A stretch of DNA of 64,000 bases, taken from contig JADQBG010000002.1 of assembly GCA_016278725.1 (NCBI GenBank), positions 1 through 64,000 on the forward strand, given 5' to 3'. The position numbers and the translations under genes were made by a program. The stretch is from Actinomycetota bacterium. GTDB taxonomy: Bacteria > Actinomycetota > Thermoleophilia > RBG-16-64-13. Within the stretch, counting starts at the first letter, position 1. Every line of letters begins with the position of its first letter. This document shows, in pieces, positions 3,913-64,000 of the stretch. Below the pieces are notes generated by a model. The model ran no database searches. It was not told the origin of the DNA and worked only from the letters and a program-made list of their open reading frames with translations.

Positions 3913-5205
3913 ATGGCGGTCGGAAGTATGTACAACTCACCCCTCTCAGACCCAAGACGAAAAGGCCGGAAACGGCGGCGGCAGGCCCCGCTCATGGCCG
4001 CGGCCATCCTGGTCGGAGCGGTGCTGTCCTTCGTTCTTGCCTTTTCTTTTTTCTGGCAGTTGGGCGATCGTGTGGTCGGAGGAGAGTTTGACGTGGGGAT
4101 GCCCTCCATCGGCTTTCCCTCCATAGGGCTTCCCTCCCTTCCCGGTTTTGGGGGTGATGAGGAAGCGATCGCGGCGGTTCCGGCACGTGAGTATCCGGTT
4201 ACCCCGGACGTCAGCCTGGGCCATTTCCGCGACCAGGCTTACCGGCCGGTCAAAGGGATCTATCTCTCCAGTTGGGCGGCGGGGCACAACGGCATCCTTA
4301 CGGACCAACTCGCTCTGGTGGACCGCACGGAAATCAACGCCATGGTGATCGACGTCAAGGACGCCACCGGCTACGTCACCTACGACGCCAATGTCCAACT
4401 CTCCGACGAGTTGGGGATGGAAGAGGAGCGCATCCGCGATATCGACGGCCTCATGGCCACTCTGCGCGAACACGACATCGTTCCCATCGCCCGCATCGTG
4501 GTCTTCAAGGATCCATTGCTGGCGGAGAAGCACCCGGAGTGGGCGGTGCAGAACGTCAACGGCGGCGTCTGGAAAGACAACAAGGGCTTCGCCTACATGA
4601 ACCCCTACCGCCGCGAGGTCTGGGACTACGTGCTCGACGTGGCCGAGGATGCGGTCAGCCACGGCTTCCGGGAGATCCAATGGGACTACGTGCGCTTCCC
4701 CAGCGACGGCAAGATTTCCGAAACCAGCTACCCGAGCGAGTACGGCCCCAAGGAAGACGCCATCGCCGACTTCCTCGCCTACAGCCGGAAGCGGCTCGAA
4801 CCCCTGGGTGTGTGGGTTTCGGCCGACGTGTTCGGCCTCACTCTCTACGAGAAGAACGACATGGGCATCGGGCAGAAGATCGAGAAGGTTGCGCGTAGCG
4901 TGGACATCGTCTCTCCCATGATCTACCCCTCGCACTACTACAGCGGCCACTACAATCTGGAAAACCCAAACGCCCACCCCTACGACGTGGTCAAGCTGGC
5001 CACGGCGGACGCCACCCGCAGGATGGACGGCACCGGCGCGATCTACCGGCCCTGGCTGCAGGACTTTTCCCTGGGGGGAGTCGAGTACGGGGTGGAAGAG
5101 GTCAAGGCTCAGATCCGGGCCGTCGAAGAGCAGGGTTATAACGAGTGGATTCTCTGGGATCCCTCGGTGAAGTACGTAGAGGGAGCCCTGCGTCCCGCGA
5201 GCTAG
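3913..5205 (+). CDS. membrane-anchored glycoside-hydrolase-like protein (DUF4015 type)
   Basis: A 430-residue protein with a strongly basic N-terminus (KGRKRRRQ), one transmembrane helix (about 27-50), a short Gly/Pro/Phe-repeat linker ('MPSIGFPSIGLPSLP') and a large TIM-barrel-like domain. That domain begins 'RPVKGIYLSSWAAG' and contains 'INAMVIDVKDATGYVTYD', 'IQWDYVRFPSDG' and 'SPMIYPSHY', all typical of the putative glycoside hydrolase family formerly called DUF4015. The catalytic site would face the outside. The substrate is not established; a cell-surface polysaccharide is likely. I chose the ATG at 3913 because the longer frame adds only non-coding-looking sequence and a possible -10 (tagact, 3886-3891) lies inside it. 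It is convergent with the acetyltransferase that follows. Confidence 0.85.
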   Translation: MAVGSMYNSPLSDPRRKGRKRRRQAPLMAAAILVGAVLSFVLAFSFFWQLGDRVVGGEFDVGMPSIGFPSIGLPSLPGFGGDEEAIAAVPAREYPVTPDVSLGHFRDQAYRPVKGIYLSSWAAGHNGILTDQLALVDRTEINAMVIDVKDATGYVTYDANVQLSDELGMEEERIRDIDGLMATLREHDIVPIARIVVFKDPLLAEKHPEWAVQNVNGGVWKDNKGFAYMNPYRREVWDYVLDVAEDAVSHGFREIQWDYVRFPSDGKISETSYPSEYGPKEDAIADFLAYSRKRLEPLGVWVSADVFGLTLYEKNDMGIGQKIEKVARSVDIVSPMIYPSHYYSGHYNLENPNAHPYDVVKLATADATRRMDGTGAIYRPWLQDFSLGGVEYGVEEVKAQIRAVEEQGYNEWILWDPSVKYVEGALRPAS

Positions 5206-5258
5206 ACTCCCGCGACCGGGGCCGGTCTCCCGGGCGGCGGCCAACCCGGCTGAGAGGC

Positions 5259-5732
5259 CTAGGCGGCCGCGGCTTCGATCGTTCTCGTGAGCGCCACCTC
5301 GCCGCAGTCGGGAAAGTGCGGGCAGTGGATGCACTCCTGCCAGATCTTGTGCGGAAGCTCCGCCTTGTCCACCTCGGCGAAACCCAGGTGTGAGAAGAAG
5401 TCGGGCACGAAGGTGAGCACGAAGACCTTGGAGATGCCCAGCCGCACGGCTTCGTCGATTGCCTCGGCGACCAGCCGCCGGCCGAGGCCCCTTCCCTGAT
5501 GCGTGGTGGCCACCGCCATCGAACGAATCTCCGCCAGGTCGCTCCAGGAGATGTGCAGGCCGATGACGCCCACGACCTGATCCCCCTCCACGGCCACGGC
5601 GTAGTCGCGCAGGTGCTCGTACAGGCTGTGCAGCGAGCGCGGCAGCATCACGCCGTTTTCGGCGTGACCGTTGATCAGCTTGTGGATCGGGGCGACGTCC
5701 GCGATTCCGGCTTTGCGAACAAGAATGGCCAT
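5259..5732 (-). CDS. GNAT N-acetyltransferase, ArgA-like (N-acetylglutamate synthase type)
   Basis: A 157-residue single GNAT domain. It has the acetyl-CoA pyrophosphate loop 'QGRGLGRRL' after 'LAEIRSMAV', and 'FVLTFVPDFFSHLGF' near the end. The C-terminal 'ELPHKIWQECIHCPHFPDC' with clustered cysteines matches the short ArgA-like acetyltransferases of Geobacter-type bacteria, which are thought to make N-acetylglutamate for arginine synthesis. I used the internal ATG at 5732; the frame upstream of it is low-complexity and lacks a ribosome site. No other arginine genes are nearby, so the substrate is inferred from family resemblance only. A generic GNAT with another substrate is possible. Confidence 0.8.
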   Translation of the reverse strand: MAILVRKAGIADVAPIHKLINGHAENGVMLPRSLHSLYEHLRDYAVAVEGDQVVGVIGLHISWSDLAEIRSMAVATTHQGRGLGRRLVAEAIDEAVRLGISKVFVLTFVPDFFSHLGFAEVDKAELPHKIWQECIHCPHFPDCGEVALTRTIEAAAA

Positions 5733-57519: not shown

Positions 57520-57688
57520 GCTCGACCTTGTACGTGAGCTGGCTACTTCTTGAGCCAACACATTCTGAAGGGGAGGCGATTTTTTCCGGGCGGCAATGCC
57601 CTCCGGCGAGGCGCCACCCACCTGCGAAAGCAGGTTCAGGAACATGTCAGACACGGCAAGGTGGAGCATTTTTTTGTGGAGGCACACT
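57520..57688 (+). promoter_or_regulatory. structured 5' leader with terminator-like 3' end, class unknown
   Basis: The leader contains several short hairpins. Its 3' part is a multi-branched unit: an outer stem (57611-57618 with 57660-57667, one G-A mismatch) encloses a GAAA-capped 6-bp hairpin (57620-57635). Seven T (57669-57675) follow directly, so the outer stem plus T-run would act as an intrinsic terminator, 14 bases before the lipoprotein ATG. GGAGG at 57678-57682 is the ribosome site. I could not match it to a known riboswitch, SRP RNA, 6S RNA or tmRNA. It may be a regulatory leader or a small RNA gene. Confidence 0.5.
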
Positions 57689-58228
57689 ATGGCTGCATCC
57701 GTTGACCGCGGGCGTCTCGGGACCTTCCGAATCCTCGTCCTCGCGCTCATCCTTCTCACCCTCGTTGCGGGAGCCCTTGCGGCTTCGGGCTGCGGCGGGG
57801 GCGCCGAGGCTCAGGAGACCACCACCACTCTGGCCGCAGCGGCGGCTCCCGCGGACCCGGTGGCCGAGGTGATCCCCCACGAGGAACTAGTCGGCTCCTA
57901 TCTGGAACTCAATGAAGAAACGCCGCTCGAGGTGCAGGAAGCGGTCGAGCAGGGCCAGCCGATGGTGATCCTGTTCTATGTCAACGGCGGAGAAGACGAC
58001 ACGCGGGTCCGCGAATCGGTTGATGCGGTGGCGGGCGACTACCCGGAGATCCGTTTTCTCAGTTATGACTTCAAGGACCCCGATTCCTACGGCAACCTGG
58101 CCCGCAAGCTCCGGGTGGACTACCCGCCGCAACTCATGTTCATCAACGAGGAAGGGCTCATCAACAAGGTCATCTCCGGCTACGTCGACCAGGGCACCCT
58201 TTTCCAGAGCGTGGCCAACATCAGCTGA
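57689..58228 (+). CDS. thioredoxin-fold lipoprotein without CxxC
   Basis: A 179-residue exported lipoprotein. A long N-terminal hydrophobic stretch ends at a lipobox-like 'LAASGCGGG' (Cys about residue 35), then a Thr/Ala-rich tether. The C-terminal domain ('GQPMVILFYVNGGEDDTRVRESVDAVA', 'FLSYDFKDPDSYGNLARKLRVDYPPQLMFI') has the thioredoxin fold with the cis-Pro loop, but the active-site CxxC is replaced by Gly-Glu-Asp-Asp. So it is probably a binding or assembly protein, not a redox enzyme. The ATG at 57689 has GGAGG upstream. Confidence 0.75.
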   Translation: MAASVDRGRLGTFRILVLALILLTLVAGALAASGCGGGAEAQETTTTLAAAAAPADPVAEVIPHEELVGSYLELNEETPLEVQEAVEQGQPMVILFYVNGGEDDTRVRESVDAVAGDYPEIRFLSYDFKDPDSYGNLARKLRVDYPPQLMFINEEGLINKVISGYVDQGTLFQSVANIS

Positions 58229-58257: not shown

Positions 58258-58288
58258 GGGGCCGGCGGTGACGCCGGCCCCGTTTCGT
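58258..58288 (+). terminator. terminator after the lipoprotein gene
   Basis: A 10-bp perfect stem (58258-58267 with 58272-58281), a 4-base loop and a short T-containing tail 'gtttcgtt'. It ends the lipoprotein transcript. Confidence 0.72.
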
Positions 58289-58325: not shown

Positions 58326-59786
58326 ATGTCCACTTATCGATCCCCTTACTACAGTGACCTTCTGCTCGAGAACTTCGCCCACCCCGTCGGCGCGGGCGGG
58401 TTGACCGCCCCTGACGTGAGCGGAGAGGCGGGCAGCCGCCGCTGCGGCGACCTCGTGCGCATCGACCTCGAGGTGAGAAACGGTTTGGTTACCGGCGCCG
58501 GCTTCCGGGCGTACGGCTGTCCGGCGGCCATCGCCGGGGCGAGCGAGATCGTGCGCAGAATTCAGGGCCGCACCGTGCTGGAAGCGGCCCGGGTGGGCTG
58601 GGCCGCCCTGCTCGCCGACCTCGAACTCGGCCCCGAGAGACGCAGTTGCGTGGAAGCCGGAGTCGATGCCCTGCACCAGGCACTACAGTCCCTGGCGTCT
58701 CAGGACGTGCCCCTGACCCCCGAGGGAGGCGCCCGGGACCCACGGGGAGTGGTGGTGGGCATGAGCGGAGGCGTGGACAGCGCCGTGGCCGCTCTGCGCC
58801 TCCGGGAGAGCGGCCTTCACCCGATCGGCGTCACCTTTCGCCTTTGGAGCGACCCCGCCTGCGGTCTGGACAACGCCTGCTGTTCGCCCGAGGCGGTCAG
58901 AGACGCCCGCGACCTGGCTCATTCCCTGGGCTTGGCGCACTTCGTCGTCGATCTCAGTCAGAAGTTCTACGACGAGGTCGTGGAGTACTTCGTGGCCGAA
59001 TACGCCCAAGCCCGGACGCCCAATCCCTGCGCGCGCTGCAACGCCGCGGTCCGCATCGAGGAGTTGCTCGAATTGGCAGACCGGCTGGGCGCCGAGTGGG
59101 GAGCGACCGGCCACTACGCCCGCATCGTGCAGCCGGAGGGAACCCTCGCCCGGGGCGAGGACCCGGACAAGGATCAATCCTACGTGCTTGCCCTGGTGGA
59201 TCCCGGGCTTCTACGAAGGATGCTCTTTCCCTTGGGGGATATGACCAAGCCGGCCGTGCGGGAACTGGCCAGAGAAAGAGGCCTCGCGGTCCACGATCGT
59301 CCGGAGAGCCAGGAGATCTGCTTCGTTCCCGACGACGACTATCGCCGCTTTCTTCGCGAAAGGCTGCCCGAGACTCCCGGTCCGATCGTCGACCGCGAGG
59401 GGCACCGGCTGGGCAGCCATGGGGGCCTCTACGGCTTCACCATCGGACAGCGGCGGGGTCTGGGCATCTCCGCTTCGCAGCCTCAGTACGTGCTCGAGTT
59501 GCGGCCGGAGCAGCAGACGGTGGTGGTGGGGCCGGGCGAAGCCGCCGACGTTCACCGGGTGGTGGTGGGGGACCTGGTTCTTCATCAGAAGAGCCTGCCC
59601 GCGCAGGCCGAGGTGCAGTTGCGGTCCTCCGGGGGCCCGACCAGAGCCGAGGTCGAGGCCGACCCGGCAGGCCGGCTGATTCTGCAGCTGGCCCGGCCCG
59701 TCCGGGGGGTGGCCCCCGGTCAGGTGGCCGTACTCTATTCGCGGCAGCGGGTTGCCGCGGCGGGCACCATCATCAGCACGGGATAG
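58326..59786 (+). CDS. mnmA: fusion of an IscU/NifU scaffold domain to tRNA 2-thiouridylase MnmA
   Basis: A 486-residue two-domain protein. Residues 1-125 are an IscU/NifU-N domain: 'SPYYSDLLLENFAHP', with Cys40-Gly-Asp42, Cys65 in 'YGCPAAIAGAS' and Cys108 in 'RRSCVEAGVDAL', all three cluster cysteines and the Asp. Residues 137-486 are MnmA: SGGVDS (147-152), Cys235 in 'TPNPCARCN', Cys332 in 'ESQEICFVPD' and 'FTIGQRRGLGI'. MnmA thiolates U34 of Glu, Gln and Lys tRNAs. The fusion would bring a sulfur or Fe-S carrier into the enzyme. In Clostridia iscS, iscU and mnmA are separate neighbours; here no iscS is adjacent. A GTG at 58317 is an alternative start. Confidence 0.92.
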   Translation: MSTYRSPYYSDLLLENFAHPVGAGGLTAPDVSGEAGSRRCGDLVRIDLEVRNGLVTGAGFRAYGCPAAIAGASEIVRRIQGRTVLEAARVGWAALLADLELGPERRSCVEAGVDALHQALQSLASQDVPLTPEGGARDPRGVVVGMSGGVDSAVAALRLRESGLHPIGVTFRLWSDPACGLDNACCSPEAVRDARDLAHSLGLAHFVVDLSQKFYDEVVEYFVAEYAQARTPNPCARCNAAVRIEELLELADRLGAEWGATGHYARIVQPEGTLARGEDPDKDQSYVLALVDPGLLRRMLFPLGDMTKPAVRELARERGLAVHDRPESQEICFVPDDDYRRFLRERLPETPGPIVDREGHRLGSHGGLYGFTIGQRRGLGISASQPQYVLELRPEQQTVVVGPGEAADVHRVVVGDLVLHQKSLPAQAEVQLRSSGGPTRAEVEADPAGRLILQLARPVRGVAPGQVAVLYSRQRVAAAGTIISTG

Positions 59787-59953: not shown

Positions 59954-60322
59954 GTGACCGCGGGCGACTTCATGGATATTGCCATTGGGATCTTCTTCTT
60001 GCTGGTGGGAATCGGCTTGGGTTGGGCTTTTTACCGGCTGGCCACGGTTTTTGCTCAGCTGACCACGACCATCCACGACGTGAGTGACGAAACGGTGCCG
60101 ATCCTCACCCGCCTGCAGACCACCGTCGATGAGGTCAATTCCGAACTCGGCAAGATAGAGGAGATCACGGGCAACGTCGTGGGCCTAACCGGTACCATCG
60201 AGCACACCACGGCCGCCGTCGGCTCCGCGGTGAGCACTCCGATCAAGAAGGTCGGCGCCCTGTCGGCCGGAGTCAGCGAGAGCGTGAGCACGTTCCTCAA
60301 GGGTCGCCGGAAGGAGGTCTAG
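59954..60322 (+). CDS. DUF948 membrane-anchored protein (YtxG-like)
   Basis: A 122-residue protein with one N-terminal membrane helix ('MDIAIGIFFLLVGIGLGWAFYRLA') and a methyl-accepting-like helical tail of DUF948 type ('VFAQLTTTIHDVSDETVPILTRLQTTVDEVN'). The family includes B. subtilis YtxG, a general-stress protein. The GTG at 59954 has 'ggagaggagtc' upstream. Upstream bases 59808-59953 hold a possible promoter (tatatt) and a small hairpin. It leads the cluster DUF948-YtxH-anti-sigma-sigma. Confidence 0.85.
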   Translation: MTAGDFMDIAIGIFFLLVGIGLGWAFYRLATVFAQLTTTIHDVSDETVPILTRLQTTVDEVNSELGKIEEITGNVVGLTGTIEHTTAAVGSAVSTPIKKVGALSAGVSESVSTFLKGRRKEV

Positions 60323-60324
60323 CC

Positions 60325-60570
60325 GTGAGCAAGATAGCTTGGGGCCTGGGCAGCGCCGCCGCGGCTGCCGTCGGCTCGGCAGTGGCCCTCGCCTACCGTA
60401 TGTCCAAGGAAACCGGACGGAGTCTGCCCGACTCCTTGTCGGAGGTACCGGCCGAAGCGCACCGCTATTGGGAGGAACTGCGCGCCCGCGGCTCCGAGGC
60501 CTTCGAGGCGGGTAAGCAGGCCGCCCGCGAGAAGCAGGCCGAAATCGAAGAACAGCTAGACGAGCGCTAG
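60325..60570 (+). CDS. YtxH-like small membrane protein
   Basis: An 81-residue protein with a hydrophobic N-terminus ('AWGLGSAAAAAVGSAVALAYRMS') and a charged helical tail ('EAFEAGKQAAREKQAEIEEQLDER'), matching the YtxH outline. GTG start 2 bases after the DUF948 gene. In Bacillus the ytxGH pair is under SigB; here the pair is next to a SigB-type factor. Confidence 0.7.
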   Translation: MSKIAWGLGSAAAAAVGSAVALAYRMSKETGRSLPDSLSEVPAEAHRYWEELRARGSEAFEAGKQAAREKQAEIEEQLDER

Positions 60571-60589
60571 GGAAGGTTTTCTCCGGCCG

Positions 60590-60997
60590 ATGACACAGAC
60601 CGCGGACAAGGTCACCCTCAAAATTCCCCGGGACGCCGCGTTTGTCCCGATTCTGCATATGCTGCTGGGCGGTATCGGTCTCCGGCGCAATCTCTCTTTC
60701 GACTCGTTGGACGACCTGCAGCTCGCGGTGGACAGCATCCTGAGCAGCGATCAGGACGGCTCGGGAGAAGAACTGTCGATGACGCTGTTACTCGAGCCCG
60801 ATCAGGTGGCGATAGTGCTCGAGGGTCTCAGGGATCCCGACCTCAGGCAGACCCTGTTGGCCGGCCACGTGCTCCCGGAGGCGGAGGCCCGCTGCATAGA
60901 TGTGTGCTTTCTGTTGCGCTCCCTGATCGATGGCTACGAGGTCGCCGAAGGTGGAGAAGGCTCCTTCTCCATAACCATGAGAAAGTCGGTGCGGTAG
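60590..60997 (+). CDS. RsbW-like anti-sigma factor, degenerate HATPase
   Basis: A 135-residue protein with the outline of an anti-sigma ATPase: 'VTLKIPRDAAFVPILHMLLGGIGLRRNLSFDSLDDLQLAVDSIL' and a final 'GSFSITMRKSV' strand. The family N-box (Glu-x3-Asn in LAV-E-x3-N) is here LAVDSIL, without Glu or Asn, and no D-x-G-x-G is seen, so ATP binding and kinase activity are doubtful. It is 4 bases upstream of the sigma gene and likely binds it. No rsbV is nearby. Confidence 0.78.
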   Translation: MTQTADKVTLKIPRDAAFVPILHMLLGGIGLRRNLSFDSLDDLQLAVDSILSSDQDGSGEELSMTLLLEPDQVAIVLEGLRDPDLRQTLLAGHVLPEAEARCIDVCFLLRSLIDGYEVAEGGEGSFSITMRKSVR

Positions 60998-61001
60998 ATC
61001 T

Positions 61002-61832
61002 ATGGCCGATCGCAGCATTCCGAGCACGGGGCGGCCGGTCCCGGCGCTGGAGAGACTAGACGAGATCCCCGAAAAGGAACTCCTGCGCCGCGTCCATGAG
61101 GATGGAGATCCGGCGGCCCGCGAGGAGCTCATCACCCGATACCTTCCGCTGGTTCGCAGTCTCGCCCGCCGCTTCGCTTCCCGGGGCCAGGCGGTCGAGG
61201 ACCTGATTCAGGTGGGCTCGATCGGTCTGATCAAGGCGATCGACCGTTTCGACATAACCCGCGGGGTGGAGCTCTCCACTTACGCCACCCCCACTGTCCT
61301 CGGCGAGATCAAGCGCTACTTCCGGGACAAGGGCTGGGCGGTCAAGGTCCCGCGGGCGCTGCAGGACCTCAACATCCGTTTGAATAAGGTCATCGAGCAG
61401 CTCACCGTCGAGCTCAACCGCTCCCCGACCATTCAAGAACTGGCACAGCATGCCGGGGTGACCGAGGAAGAGGTGCTGGAGGCTCTCGAGAGCGGCCGCG
61501 CCTACAGTTCCCTGTCCATCTACTCGAGCGGATCGTCAGACGAAGACGACTCCATGGAGCTGCTCGACTACCTGGGCAAGGAAGAGACTCAGTACGAACT
61601 GGTGGAGCAGCGGCGCTTCCTGGCTCCGGCCATGGAAAAGCTCGACGAGAGAGAGCGGCTGATCCTGCACCTGCGCTTCTTCGAGGGGATGACGCAGACC
61701 CAGATCGCCGCCCGCGTGGGCATCTCTCAGATGCACGTTTCCCGCCTGATCCGTAAGTCGATCGAGCTCCTGCGTCAGTTCATGCTGAACGAACGGGAGC
61801 TTCGCGAGATCGAGGATAGCGAAGAGGAGTAG
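61002..61832 (+). CDS. SigB/SigF-type RNA polymerase sigma factor
   Basis: A 276-residue group 3 sigma factor with regions 2 ('RYLPLVRSLARRFASRGQAVEDLIQVGSIGLIKAIDRFD'), 3 ('LNRSPTIQELAQHAGVTEEEVLEAL') and 4 ('LILHLRFFEGMTQTQIAARVGISQMHVSRLIRKSIELLR'). The 'YATPTVLGEIKRYFRDKGWAVKVPR' piece is typical of the SigB/SigF branch that serves stress or sporulation in actinobacteria. It follows the anti-sigma gene by 4 bases. Upstream YtxGH-like genes may be in its regulon. Confidence 0.92.
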   Translation: MADRSIPSTGRPVPALERLDEIPEKELLRRVHEDGDPAAREELITRYLPLVRSLARRFASRGQAVEDLIQVGSIGLIKAIDRFDITRGVELSTYATPTVLGEIKRYFRDKGWAVKVPRALQDLNIRLNKVIEQLTVELNRSPTIQELAQHAGVTEEEVLEALESGRAYSSLSIYSSGSSDEDDSMELLDYLGKEETQYELVEQRRFLAPAMEKLDERERLILHLRFFEGMTQTQIAARVGISQMHVSRLIRKSIELLRQFMLNERELREIEDSEEE

Positions 61833-61913
61833 GCGCGCTGCGGCGAAGGCGGTACCTTGAACGGGTTTCCCCGGCCCGTTGTCCCCGGCACATCCGAGAG
61901 GTTGGTTTATCGC

Positions 61914-64000
61914 GTGAAGACGTCCGAACTTAGACGCCTGTTTCTCGAATTCTTTGTCGAGCGCCAGCACCTGCTTGTCTCCAGCTCGTCGCTGGTGCCC
62001 TACAAAGACCCCTCGGTGATGCTCACCACAGCGGGTATGCAGCAGTTCAAGCCCTACTTCCTGGGGATGGAGGAGCCGCCTCGCCGCCGGCTGACCAGCG
62101 TGCAGAAGTGCTTCCGCACCACGGACATCGACCGGGTCGGTCTCACCGCGCGGCACTGCACCTTCTTCGAAATGCTGGGCAACTTCTCGGTGGGCGATTA
62201 CTTCAAGGACGGCGCCGTTCGTTTCGCCTATGAGTTCTCGACGGAAGTGCTCGGCTTCGATCCGGAGCGCATCTGGATCTCGGTGTTCGAGGGCGACGAG
62301 CAGGTGGAGAAGGACGAAGAGGCGATCGCGGCTTGGCAGGCCGTCGGCATCCCCCGCGAGCGTATGGTGGAATTGCCCCGGAGCGAGAATTTCTGGGGAC
62401 CCCCGGGCCCCACCGGCCCCTGCGGGCCCTGCTCCGAGCTCTACTACGACCGCGGACCCGATTACGGTTGCGCCGATCCCAATTGCCTCCCCGGGTGTGA
62501 GTGCGACCGCTACGTGGAGTACTGGAACCTGGTGTTCATGCAGTACAACATGGACGATGAGGGCCGCCTGACCCCCCTGCCCAGCAAGAACATCGACACG
62601 GGCATGGGCCTGGAGCGCATCGCGGCGCTCACCCAGGACGTGGCTTCGGTGTTCGAAACCGACGTCTTCTACCCGCTGCTGCAGTTGGGCGAAGAGATGG
62701 CGGGGGTGCGCTTCGGCGAGGACGAGCGGGTGGACGTGGCCCTGCGCGTGCTGGCCGATCACTCCCGGGCGATGTCCTTTCTGGTGGCGGACGGCGTGCT
62801 CCCCAGCAATGAGGGCCGCGGTTACGTGCTGCGCCGGGTGATCCGCCGGGCCGCCCGTTTCGGCCGGGGAATCGGGATGGAGCCTCCTTACCTGGCCCGC
62901 TTCGCCGAGCGGACCATCGAGATGCTCGCGGACGCCTACCCCGAATTGGGGGAGCGTCGGGAAACCATTCTGCGTGTCGTGGGCGCCGAAGAGGAACGCT
63001 TCAACCGCACCTTGGACCAAGGACTGGTTATCCTGGGCGAGGAGGTGGAGCAGGCGCTCGCGAGGGGGGACGAGGTCTTTCCCGGGAGGGCCGCCTTCGT
63101 GCTGCACGATACCTACGGCTTTCCCATCGACGTCACCCGCGAGATCGTGGCCGAGCGGGGGCTTCAGTTGGATGACGCCGCTTTTGAGGCGCAGATGGCC
63201 GAGCAGCGCCGCCGGGCCCGCGCTTCTCAACAGGGGGGAGACGACGAGGTTCAGGAAGCGATGATCCGCTTCGCCCGCGAGGGAGGGCGGCCCACGGAGT
63301 TCATGGGCTATGAGCGCGAAGACATGTTCACCGTGCTCGAACGGCTCGAGCCCCTCGACGGCGAGCGAATTCTCCTTACGCTTCGCGAAAGTCCGTTCTA
63401 CTCGACCGGCGGCGGACAGGTCGCAGATGTGGGTTACCTGGAAGCGGACAGCGGGCGCGCCGAAGTGGAGGACGTGCAGCTACACGGCTCGGTTCAGGTG
63501 ATCGTGGCGCGCGTGACCGACGGAGAGATCCAGGCCGGCACCCGCGTGCGGGCAATCGTCTCCCCGGCCCACCGGCACTCGGTCGCCGCCAACCATACCG
63601 GCACCCACCTGCTGCATTACGCGCTGCGCACGGTTCTGGGCAAGGACGCCACCCAGGCGGGTTCGGCGGTACGCCCCGAGAAGTTCCGCTTCGACTTCAG
63701 TTTCGCAGAACCGTTGGGCCCCGAGCGCCTGGGCGAGGTGGAGGAGATCGTCAACCGCAAGATCGTCGAGAATCACCCGGTGCGGGCCTTCGTCACCAGT
63801 TTCGAGCACGCGCGCGACCTGGGAGCCGTCGCTCTCTTCGGGGAGAAGTACGGCGACTTCGTGCGCGTGGTGGAAGTCGATGATTTCAGCCGCGAGCTCT
63901 GCGGCGGCACTCACGTCCACCAGACCGGGGAGATCGGGGCCTTCAAGGTCCTCTCCGAAGGCAGCGTGGGAGCCAACGTCCGCCGCATCGAAGCGGTGAC
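61914..64000 (+). CDS. alaS: alanyl-tRNA synthetase (partial, runs off the window)
   Basis: The first 695 residues of AlaRS; the stop lies beyond the window. It has 'SSSLVPYKDPSVMLTTAGMQQFKPYF', 'VQKCFRTTDID', 'HCTFFEMLGNFSVGDYFK', the tRNA-Ala recognition part, and the editing domain with 'NHTGTHLLHYALR' (about 559) and 'ELCGGTHVHQTG' (Cys-x3-His, about 663). The likely start is GTG at 61914, with GAGAGG about 12 bases upstream. The C-terminal C-Ala domain is not in view. Confidence 0.95.
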   Translation, partial: MKTSELRRLFLEFFVERQHLLVSSSSLVPYKDPSVMLTTAGMQQFKPYFLGMEEPPRRRLTSVQKCFRTTDIDRVGLTARHCTFFEMLGNFSVGDYFKDGAVRFAYEFSTEVLGFDPERIWISVFEGDEQVEKDEEAIAAWQAVGIPRERMVELPRSENFWGPPGPTGPCGPCSELYYDRGPDYGCADPNCLPGCECDRYVEYWNLVFMQYNMDDEGRLTPLPSKNIDTGMGLERIAALTQDVASVFETDVFYPLLQLGEEMAGVRFGEDERVDVALRVLADHSRAMSFLVADGVLPSNEGRGYVLRRVIRRAARFGRGIGMEPPYLARFAERTIEMLADAYPELGERRETILRVVGAEEERFNRTLDQGLVILGEEVEQALARGDEVFPGRAAFVLHDTYGFPIDVTREIVAERGLQLDDAAFEAQMAEQRRRARASQQGGDDEVQEAMIRFAREGGRPTEFMGYEREDMFTVLERLEPLDGERILLTLRESPFYSTGGGQVADVGYLEADSGRAEVEDVQLHGSVQVIVARVTDGEIQAGTRVRAIVSPAHRHSVAANHTGTHLLHYALRTVLGKDATQAGSAVRPEKFRFDFSFAEPLGPERLGEVEEIVNRKIVENHPVRAFVTSFEHARDLGAVALFGEKYGDFVRVVEVDDFSRELCGGTHVHQTGEIGAFKVLSEGSVGANVRRIEAV

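Follow-up and report, generated by a model that had tools for sequence, protein, structure and literature searches.

An IscU-like domain fused to the tRNA thiolase MnmA across Thermoleophilia, a possible sulfur-accepting module

Results

The window, by which we mean the whole 64,000-nucleotide stretch analysed (contig JADQBG010000002.1 of the thermoleophilian assembly GCA_016278725.1), carries a single stop-free frame at 58326-59786 on the forward (+) strand, the strand of all features given below for this gene. The frame runs from an ATG at 58326 to a TAG at 59784-59786 and encodes 486 amino acids. Residues 1-124 (58326-58697) form an IscU-like N-terminal domain, residues 125-138 (58698-58739) a linker, and residues 139-486 (58740-59783) a complete MnmA. 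A first-pass annotation of this DNA had described one open frame joining the two parts. This is borne out by the frame itself, by the Pfam matches and by a sister species (G213), in which the same frame is present with 89% identity across the whole protein. Comparison of the two species gave dN/dS values of 0.18 for the IscU-like domain, 0.16 for the linker and 0.15 for MnmA; purifying selection acts on both halves of the fusion. The same frame in the sister species and these low dN/dS values rule out a frameshift or an assembly error at the junction. An AlphaFold2 model built on 89 fusion sequences has a mean pLDDT of 95.9 and a pTM of 0.92. Because these values are high and the linker is modelled as ordered (pLDDT about 91-95), a fixed, rigid arrangement of the two domains is predicted.

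A terminator-like stem at 58258-58281 (+), from a consensus scan only and with a chance expectation of 0.8, suggests that the fusion gene may be transcribed separately from the upstream gene. The predicted protein encoded upstream of the fusion, at 57596-58228, has a hydrophobic segment near its N terminus and is matched by no Pfam model. The interval from the fusion to alaS (59954-63998) holds a weak match to DUF948, two small proteins for which Pfam gave no match and a sigma-70 family factor.

The MnmA half is matched by all three Pfam MnmA domains at residues 142-482 and by two MnmA equivalog models above their cut-offs (NF001138, 361.5 bits against 284; TIGR00420, 286.7 bits against 236.95). 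In a structure comparison the part of the model outside the N-terminal domain matches MnmA at a Z score of about 41. The PP-loop SGGVDS (residues 147-152; 58764-58781), Cys235 and Cys332 (59319-59321; Cys199 of E. coli MnmA) are as first annotated, to which we add Cys238, in the motif Cys235-x-x-Cys238 (59028-59039; Asp99 and Cys102 of E. coli MnmA), and the pair Cys185-Cys186 (58878-58883), the CC of the CC-CxxC-C motif (PMC11784392). This motif marks the fusion MnmA as C type, a class that Shigi and colleagues defined (as cited in PMC8584467 and PMC11784392). According to the same two papers, the C-type MnmA of Thermus thermophilus holds a [4Fe-4S] cluster. The annotation had noted that some MnmA homologues need an Fe-S cluster, and the motif places the protein in that type; the cluster is demonstrated in Thermus only, and the window MnmA is typed by sequence. 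The motif cysteines, the PP-loop and the full-length match are shared with the Thermus enzyme, and the N-terminal IscU-like domain sets the fusion protein apart from it. CxxC is present in every MnmA sampled across the phylum.

The N-terminal domain is matched by Pfam NifU_N at residues 9-122 (E = 4.9e-18, 65.9 bits, cut-off 22). Scores against the curated IscU and NifU models TIGR01999 (53.5, cut-off 192.4) and TIGR03419 (61.2, cut-off 187.9) fall far below their thresholds, as does that against the SufU model TIGR01994 (29.6 bits, cut-off 92.5). Structure comparisons give Z scores of about 19-20 for the match to IscU chains, as against about 15 for SufU chains. The alignment places Cys40-Gly41-Asp42 (58443-58451) at Cys37 and Asp39 of E. 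coli IscU, Cys65 (58518-58520) at Cys63, and Ser107-Cys108 (58644-58649) at His105-Cys106. Cys40, Asp42, Cys65 and Cys108 are thus where the annotation had put them, and its IscU-like domain stands as to family and fold; it is not complete, because Ser107 replaces the IscU histidine while the third cysteine is kept. The LPPVK motif that precedes the third cysteine of IscU is the HscA site; on reading the window sequence it is absent, and LGPER stands at residues 101-105 instead. Within the NifU_N family, the sequence places the fused domain with IscU, and its five-residue site is incomplete. It descends from IscU, yet it fails the features of a scaffold IscU that were tested, namely the five site residues, the curated scores and LPPVK. 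The ligands of the window copy (three cysteines and Asp, no His) are those of SufU, and despite this the domain does not classify as SufU by curated score or by spacing: Cys65 and Cys108 are 43 residues apart, against 64 between Cys67 and Cys131 of Mycobacterium tuberculosis SufU (PMC10216065).

To place the fusion taxonomically, 198 genomes of the phylum Actinomycetota and 299 of the class Thermoleophilia were surveyed (f, G and L numbers below are our handles for family-level groups, genomes and loci). The fusion was found in most family-level groups of Thermoleophilia and in a few other actinomycetotal groups (f18, f11 and f50). A search of named genomes with an alignment as query returned 26 loci, 15 of them fused, and all 15 come from actinomycetotal metagenome-assembled genomes (MAGs), mostly Thermoleophilia. 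Among named records the MAG 'Actinomycetes bacterium LH_M23' is the nearest; other loci with the fusion lie in Thermoleophilia and Miltoncostaeaceae MAGs, and it is from the names of these records that the class is assigned. A fusion limited to one MAG is ruled out by the phylum and class surveys; far from being absent in all relatives, it is class-wide. Within the window's own family, MnmA is without the IscU-like domain in seven genomes. In family f56 mnmA is unfused, and in one of its genomes (G214) a canonical iscU adjoins mnmA. One fusion (G175; L040, 8369-9925, minus strand) is interrupted in its MnmA part by a TAG in frame, at codon 376 of the stretch read, which may mark either a pseudogene or a MAG error.

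The papers searched do not describe the fusion, consistent with the first-pass statement that no characterised fusion is known; many subscription papers lay beyond that literature. Both parts are known, and what is apparently new is their fusion together with the ligand pattern reported below, neither being described in the papers searched.

Gene order in the relatives suggests where the fusion came from. In f24 and f46 three separate genes are found in the order iscS-iscU-mnmA, an order known from Clostridium perfringens as iscS-iscU-trmU (PMC2940859); the annotation, too, had mentioned the genes as neighbours. Within f18, the gene after iscS is in three loci (L058, L060 and L061) an IscU-like gene that lies flush with mnmA or overlaps it, its stop codon falling inside the first codons of mnmA in L060 and L061, and in three others (L056, L057 and L059) it is the fusion. 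The latter arrangement is also that of f7 and f59, and in most of the class, as in the window, no iscS adjoins the fusion. The simple reading is that the fusion arose from neighbouring genes. In a tree of the IscU domain, based on few columns and weakly supported, the fused domains and their f18 partners are separate from canonical IscU; in f18 fused and unfused forms are intermixed, so that fission or repeated fusion is possible there. The unfused f18 partner already has the histidine without the third cysteine.

IscU-like genes with altered sites were also seen outside the phylum. In a Zixibacteria MAG (L118, 3739-6541) iscS, an IscU-like gene and mnmA follow one another without fusion, and the IscU-like gene has Asn-Gly-Asn for Cys-Gly-Asp. 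In Pseudomonadota, for example Paenalcaligenes hominis, an IscU-like gene directly 3' of iscS is without the first Cys-Gly-Asp motif (L126, L127, L129, L130, L131 and L133; match near 5001-5340, in L129 at 4126-4518). These genes mostly keep His-Cys, a decay opposite to that of the fused domains.

As first annotated, no iscS is adjacent to the fusion in the window. The genome encodes a NifS/IscS-type desulfurase beside a canonical IscU on another contig, together with one TIGR01977 desulfurase and one TusA. This standalone IscU passes TIGR03419 (206.4, cut-off 187.9), and canonical standalone IscU proteins, from this genome and from relatives, have all five site residues. Among the genomes of f2, f4, f5, f57, f6, f7 and f59 examined, the other NifU_N protein resembles SufU, and in several of them its gene adjoins the strongest desulfurase match, which is presumably SufS. 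Two genomes (G154 and G111) have a single desulfurase, SufS-like, at E below 1e-30, and TusA was not found in them. From this it follows that, barring a donor that escaped detection, their MnmA should use SufS, directly or via the fused domain.

The five IscU site residues (Cys37, Asp39, Cys63, His105 and Cys106 of E. coli IscU) were read from an alignment of all the proteins. None of the 93 full-length fused domains has the full site. Cys-Asp-Cys plus the histidine, with the third cysteine changed to Ala or Gly, is found in 61 (f2, f4, f5, f18, f57 and f58). Another 15 have Cys-Asp-Cys and the third cysteine without the histidine (f1, including the window, f7, f59 and f50). Among these 76 domains with the Cys-Asp-Cys core, not one has both the histidine and the third cysteine and not one has neither. 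The core is broken in the remaining 17, where the fourth ligand is almost always missing too; full-length domains with broken ligand sets occur in f1, f3, f11 and f60. Cys40 is retained in 92 of the 93 and is the sole remaining ligand in f3 and f60; by this count it is the last ligand to go. The 76 coherent sequences are mostly one per genus. On the tree the histidine label needs three changes and the cysteine label five, and therefore the pattern represents a handful of evolutionary events, not 76. The ligand type has no simple link to an adjacent iscS, which is found with the histidine type in f18 and with the cysteine type in f7 and f59.

The two types correspond to the two ligand sets for zinc that calculations on E. 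coli IscU gave (PMC4243993). One consists of Cys37, Asp39, Cys63 and His105, with Cys106 free; the other of the three cysteines and Asp39, with the histidine out. Judged by their residues, most fused domains are fixed on one of these alternatives, with the fifth residue lost.

These patterns bear on the proposal, made in the annotation, that a fused scaffold delivers sulfur or a cluster to MnmA. A domain on which an Fe-S cluster is assembled or kept, and from which the [4Fe-4S] site of its MnmA is filled, would suit a C-type enzyme, given the cluster in Thermus (PMC8584467); the window domain does retain three cysteines and Asp, and several solved IscU-type structures bind [2Fe-2S]. Yet the third cysteine is missing in 61 of the 93 domains and further ligands in 17, while MnmA stays of the C type; the domain-less relatives have C-type MnmA as well, and other Fe-S proteins have a canonical IscU or a SUF system to serve them. 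We therefore consider cluster delivery improbable. A complete scaffold with general cluster delivery is not supported, given the 61 domains without the third cysteine, the 15 without the histidine and the 17 with further losses. In the window's own lineage, which keeps three cysteines and Asp, the domain may deliver a cluster. The sulfur part of the proposal is plausible, and it is the part that we prefer.

In family f6 only about 75 residues precede MnmA, and they are conserved over the family. Profile comparison relates this stub to the IscU domain (96.8%, E = 2.1e-10). Single-sequence scores are weak, with 2 of 360 shuffles within their range, and the structure comparison of the stub protein has no IscU chain among the matches listed, the MnmA part filling the list. 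The modelled stub retains a well-ordered three-stranded sheet and the last helix. It is without the N-terminal helix, the Cys65 helix and the third motif, and has no ligands. Part of the domain can therefore persist without metal chemistry, and this argues for some structural contribution. Taken with the domain-less MnmAs of the window's family, the stub implies that acceptor chemistry is dispensable in some lineages.

Side by side with these losses we note that, in the window's family, the CC of CC-CxxC-C is lost in four of seven MnmAs without the domain (L088, L090, L093 and L094, from two genera) and in none of ten with it. This is only a hint, from few independent events, that CC and the IscU domain might work together.

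The stub and the persistence of full-length domains with broken ligand sets fit a domain that only docks MnmA or supports its structure. Such a domain would hold MnmA near a desulfurase or stabilise MnmA itself or its contact with tRNA, with a structural zinc in most lineages and no sulfur passing via Cys40; a fixed four-ligand site with no spare Cys or His does look structural. Against this, Cys40 survives the loss of the other ligands, which a structural zinc does not explain. E. coli IscU needs its N-terminal helix for IscS binding, and since the stub is without this helix, docking is not common to all fusions either. We regard a purely docking or structural role as a serious but doubtful alternative. 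Sulfur acceptance is favoured over it mainly because Cys40 is kept, at the acceptor position of SufU and the proposed one of IscU.

Several independent degenerations and losses might also be expected of a neutral, functionless leftover of gene fusion. This we consider very improbable, since dN/dS is 0.18 for the domain and 0.15 for MnmA, the ligand sets of 76 sequences, mostly one per genus, are coherent, and the stub is itself conserved across its family.

Discussion

The reading that we put forward, tentatively and at somewhat less than even confidence, is that the fused domain began as an IscU and now serves an Fe-S-type MnmA as its own module for docking and for accepting sulfur. The best reading of the comparisons is an adaptor of IscU-like ancestry with SufU-like chemistry. 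We infer a mechanism in which the domain would dock MnmA onto a cysteine desulfurase, and Cys40 would release a metal, probably zinc, and accept a persulfide. This step is modelled on Cys40 of M. tuberculosis SufU, which lies at the same position, leaves zinc when SufS docks and accepts the persulfide (PMC10216065); the E. coli IscS-IscU structure led to the proposal that the equivalent Cys37 is the first to accept sulfur (PMC2854127). Sulfur would then move to the cysteine or Fe-S active site of MnmA and on to U34 of the tRNA. The fused domain would replace a separate sulfur carrier, the cluster scaffold of the cell would be the canonical IscU encoded elsewhere, and in some lineages the role may have been reduced to a structural stub or dropped.

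Support for this reading comes from the gene orders that lead from iscS-iscU-mnmA, by way of overlapping genes, to the fusion, from the retention of Cys40, from the match of the two ligand types to alternative zinc sets and from the separate canonical iscS-iscU pair. It comes further from purifying selection, from the rigid two-domain model and from the two genomes with a lone SufS-like desulfurase and no detected TusA. Counting against it, the TusA of the window's genome means that an alternative sulfur route exists there, and the derivation of the ligand pattern from a handful of events weakens the case. A general cluster scaffold is unlikely in view of the ligand losses, the stub, the domain-less genomes and the separate canonical iscS-iscU.

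Compared with known systems, the domain has the family, the fold and the Cys-Gly-Asp and Gly-Cys motifs of IscU and clostridial-type NifU (TIGR01999 and TIGR03419), and relatives share the iscS-iscU-mnmA order with C. perfringens. It differs from them in being carried on MnmA, in never having the five-residue site, in its far lower scores and in the absence of LPPVK. With SufU of Bacillus subtilis and M. tuberculosis, a zinc-dependent sulfur acceptor for SufS, the window's lineage shares the Cys40 position and the ligand set; it occurs in 15 fused domains, that of the window among them, and not in the 61 of the histidine type. Unlike SufU, the fused domain has no extra residues between the second and third cysteines, is IscU-like by score and structure, and is joined to MnmA. 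In the YrvO-MnmA pair of B. subtilis the desulfurase itself, a separate protein, supplies MnmA without a Tus relay. There too a dedicated partner replaces the relay, whereas here it would be an acceptor-type domain in the same chain.

Extended to the whole class, the proposal would be that Thermoleophilia feed an Fe-S-type MnmA via a cis-acting, IscU-derived, zinc-gated persulfide acceptor. By analogy with SufU we think this possible, if on the unlikely side. If true, it would be a third kind of sulfur supply for s2U34, beside the Tus relay and the YrvO-type desulfurase, and the acceptor domain would let SUF serve tRNA thiolation where SufS is the only desulfurase detected. The sulfur route to MnmA, by a persulfide or by a [4Fe-4S] mechanism, is openly disputed (PMC11784392). 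The natural variants (His without the third Cys, Cys without His, Cys40 alone, the stub and no domain at all) make a set of constructs for that dispute. The same series would show an IscU fold converted stepwise from scaffold to another use inside one bacterial class.
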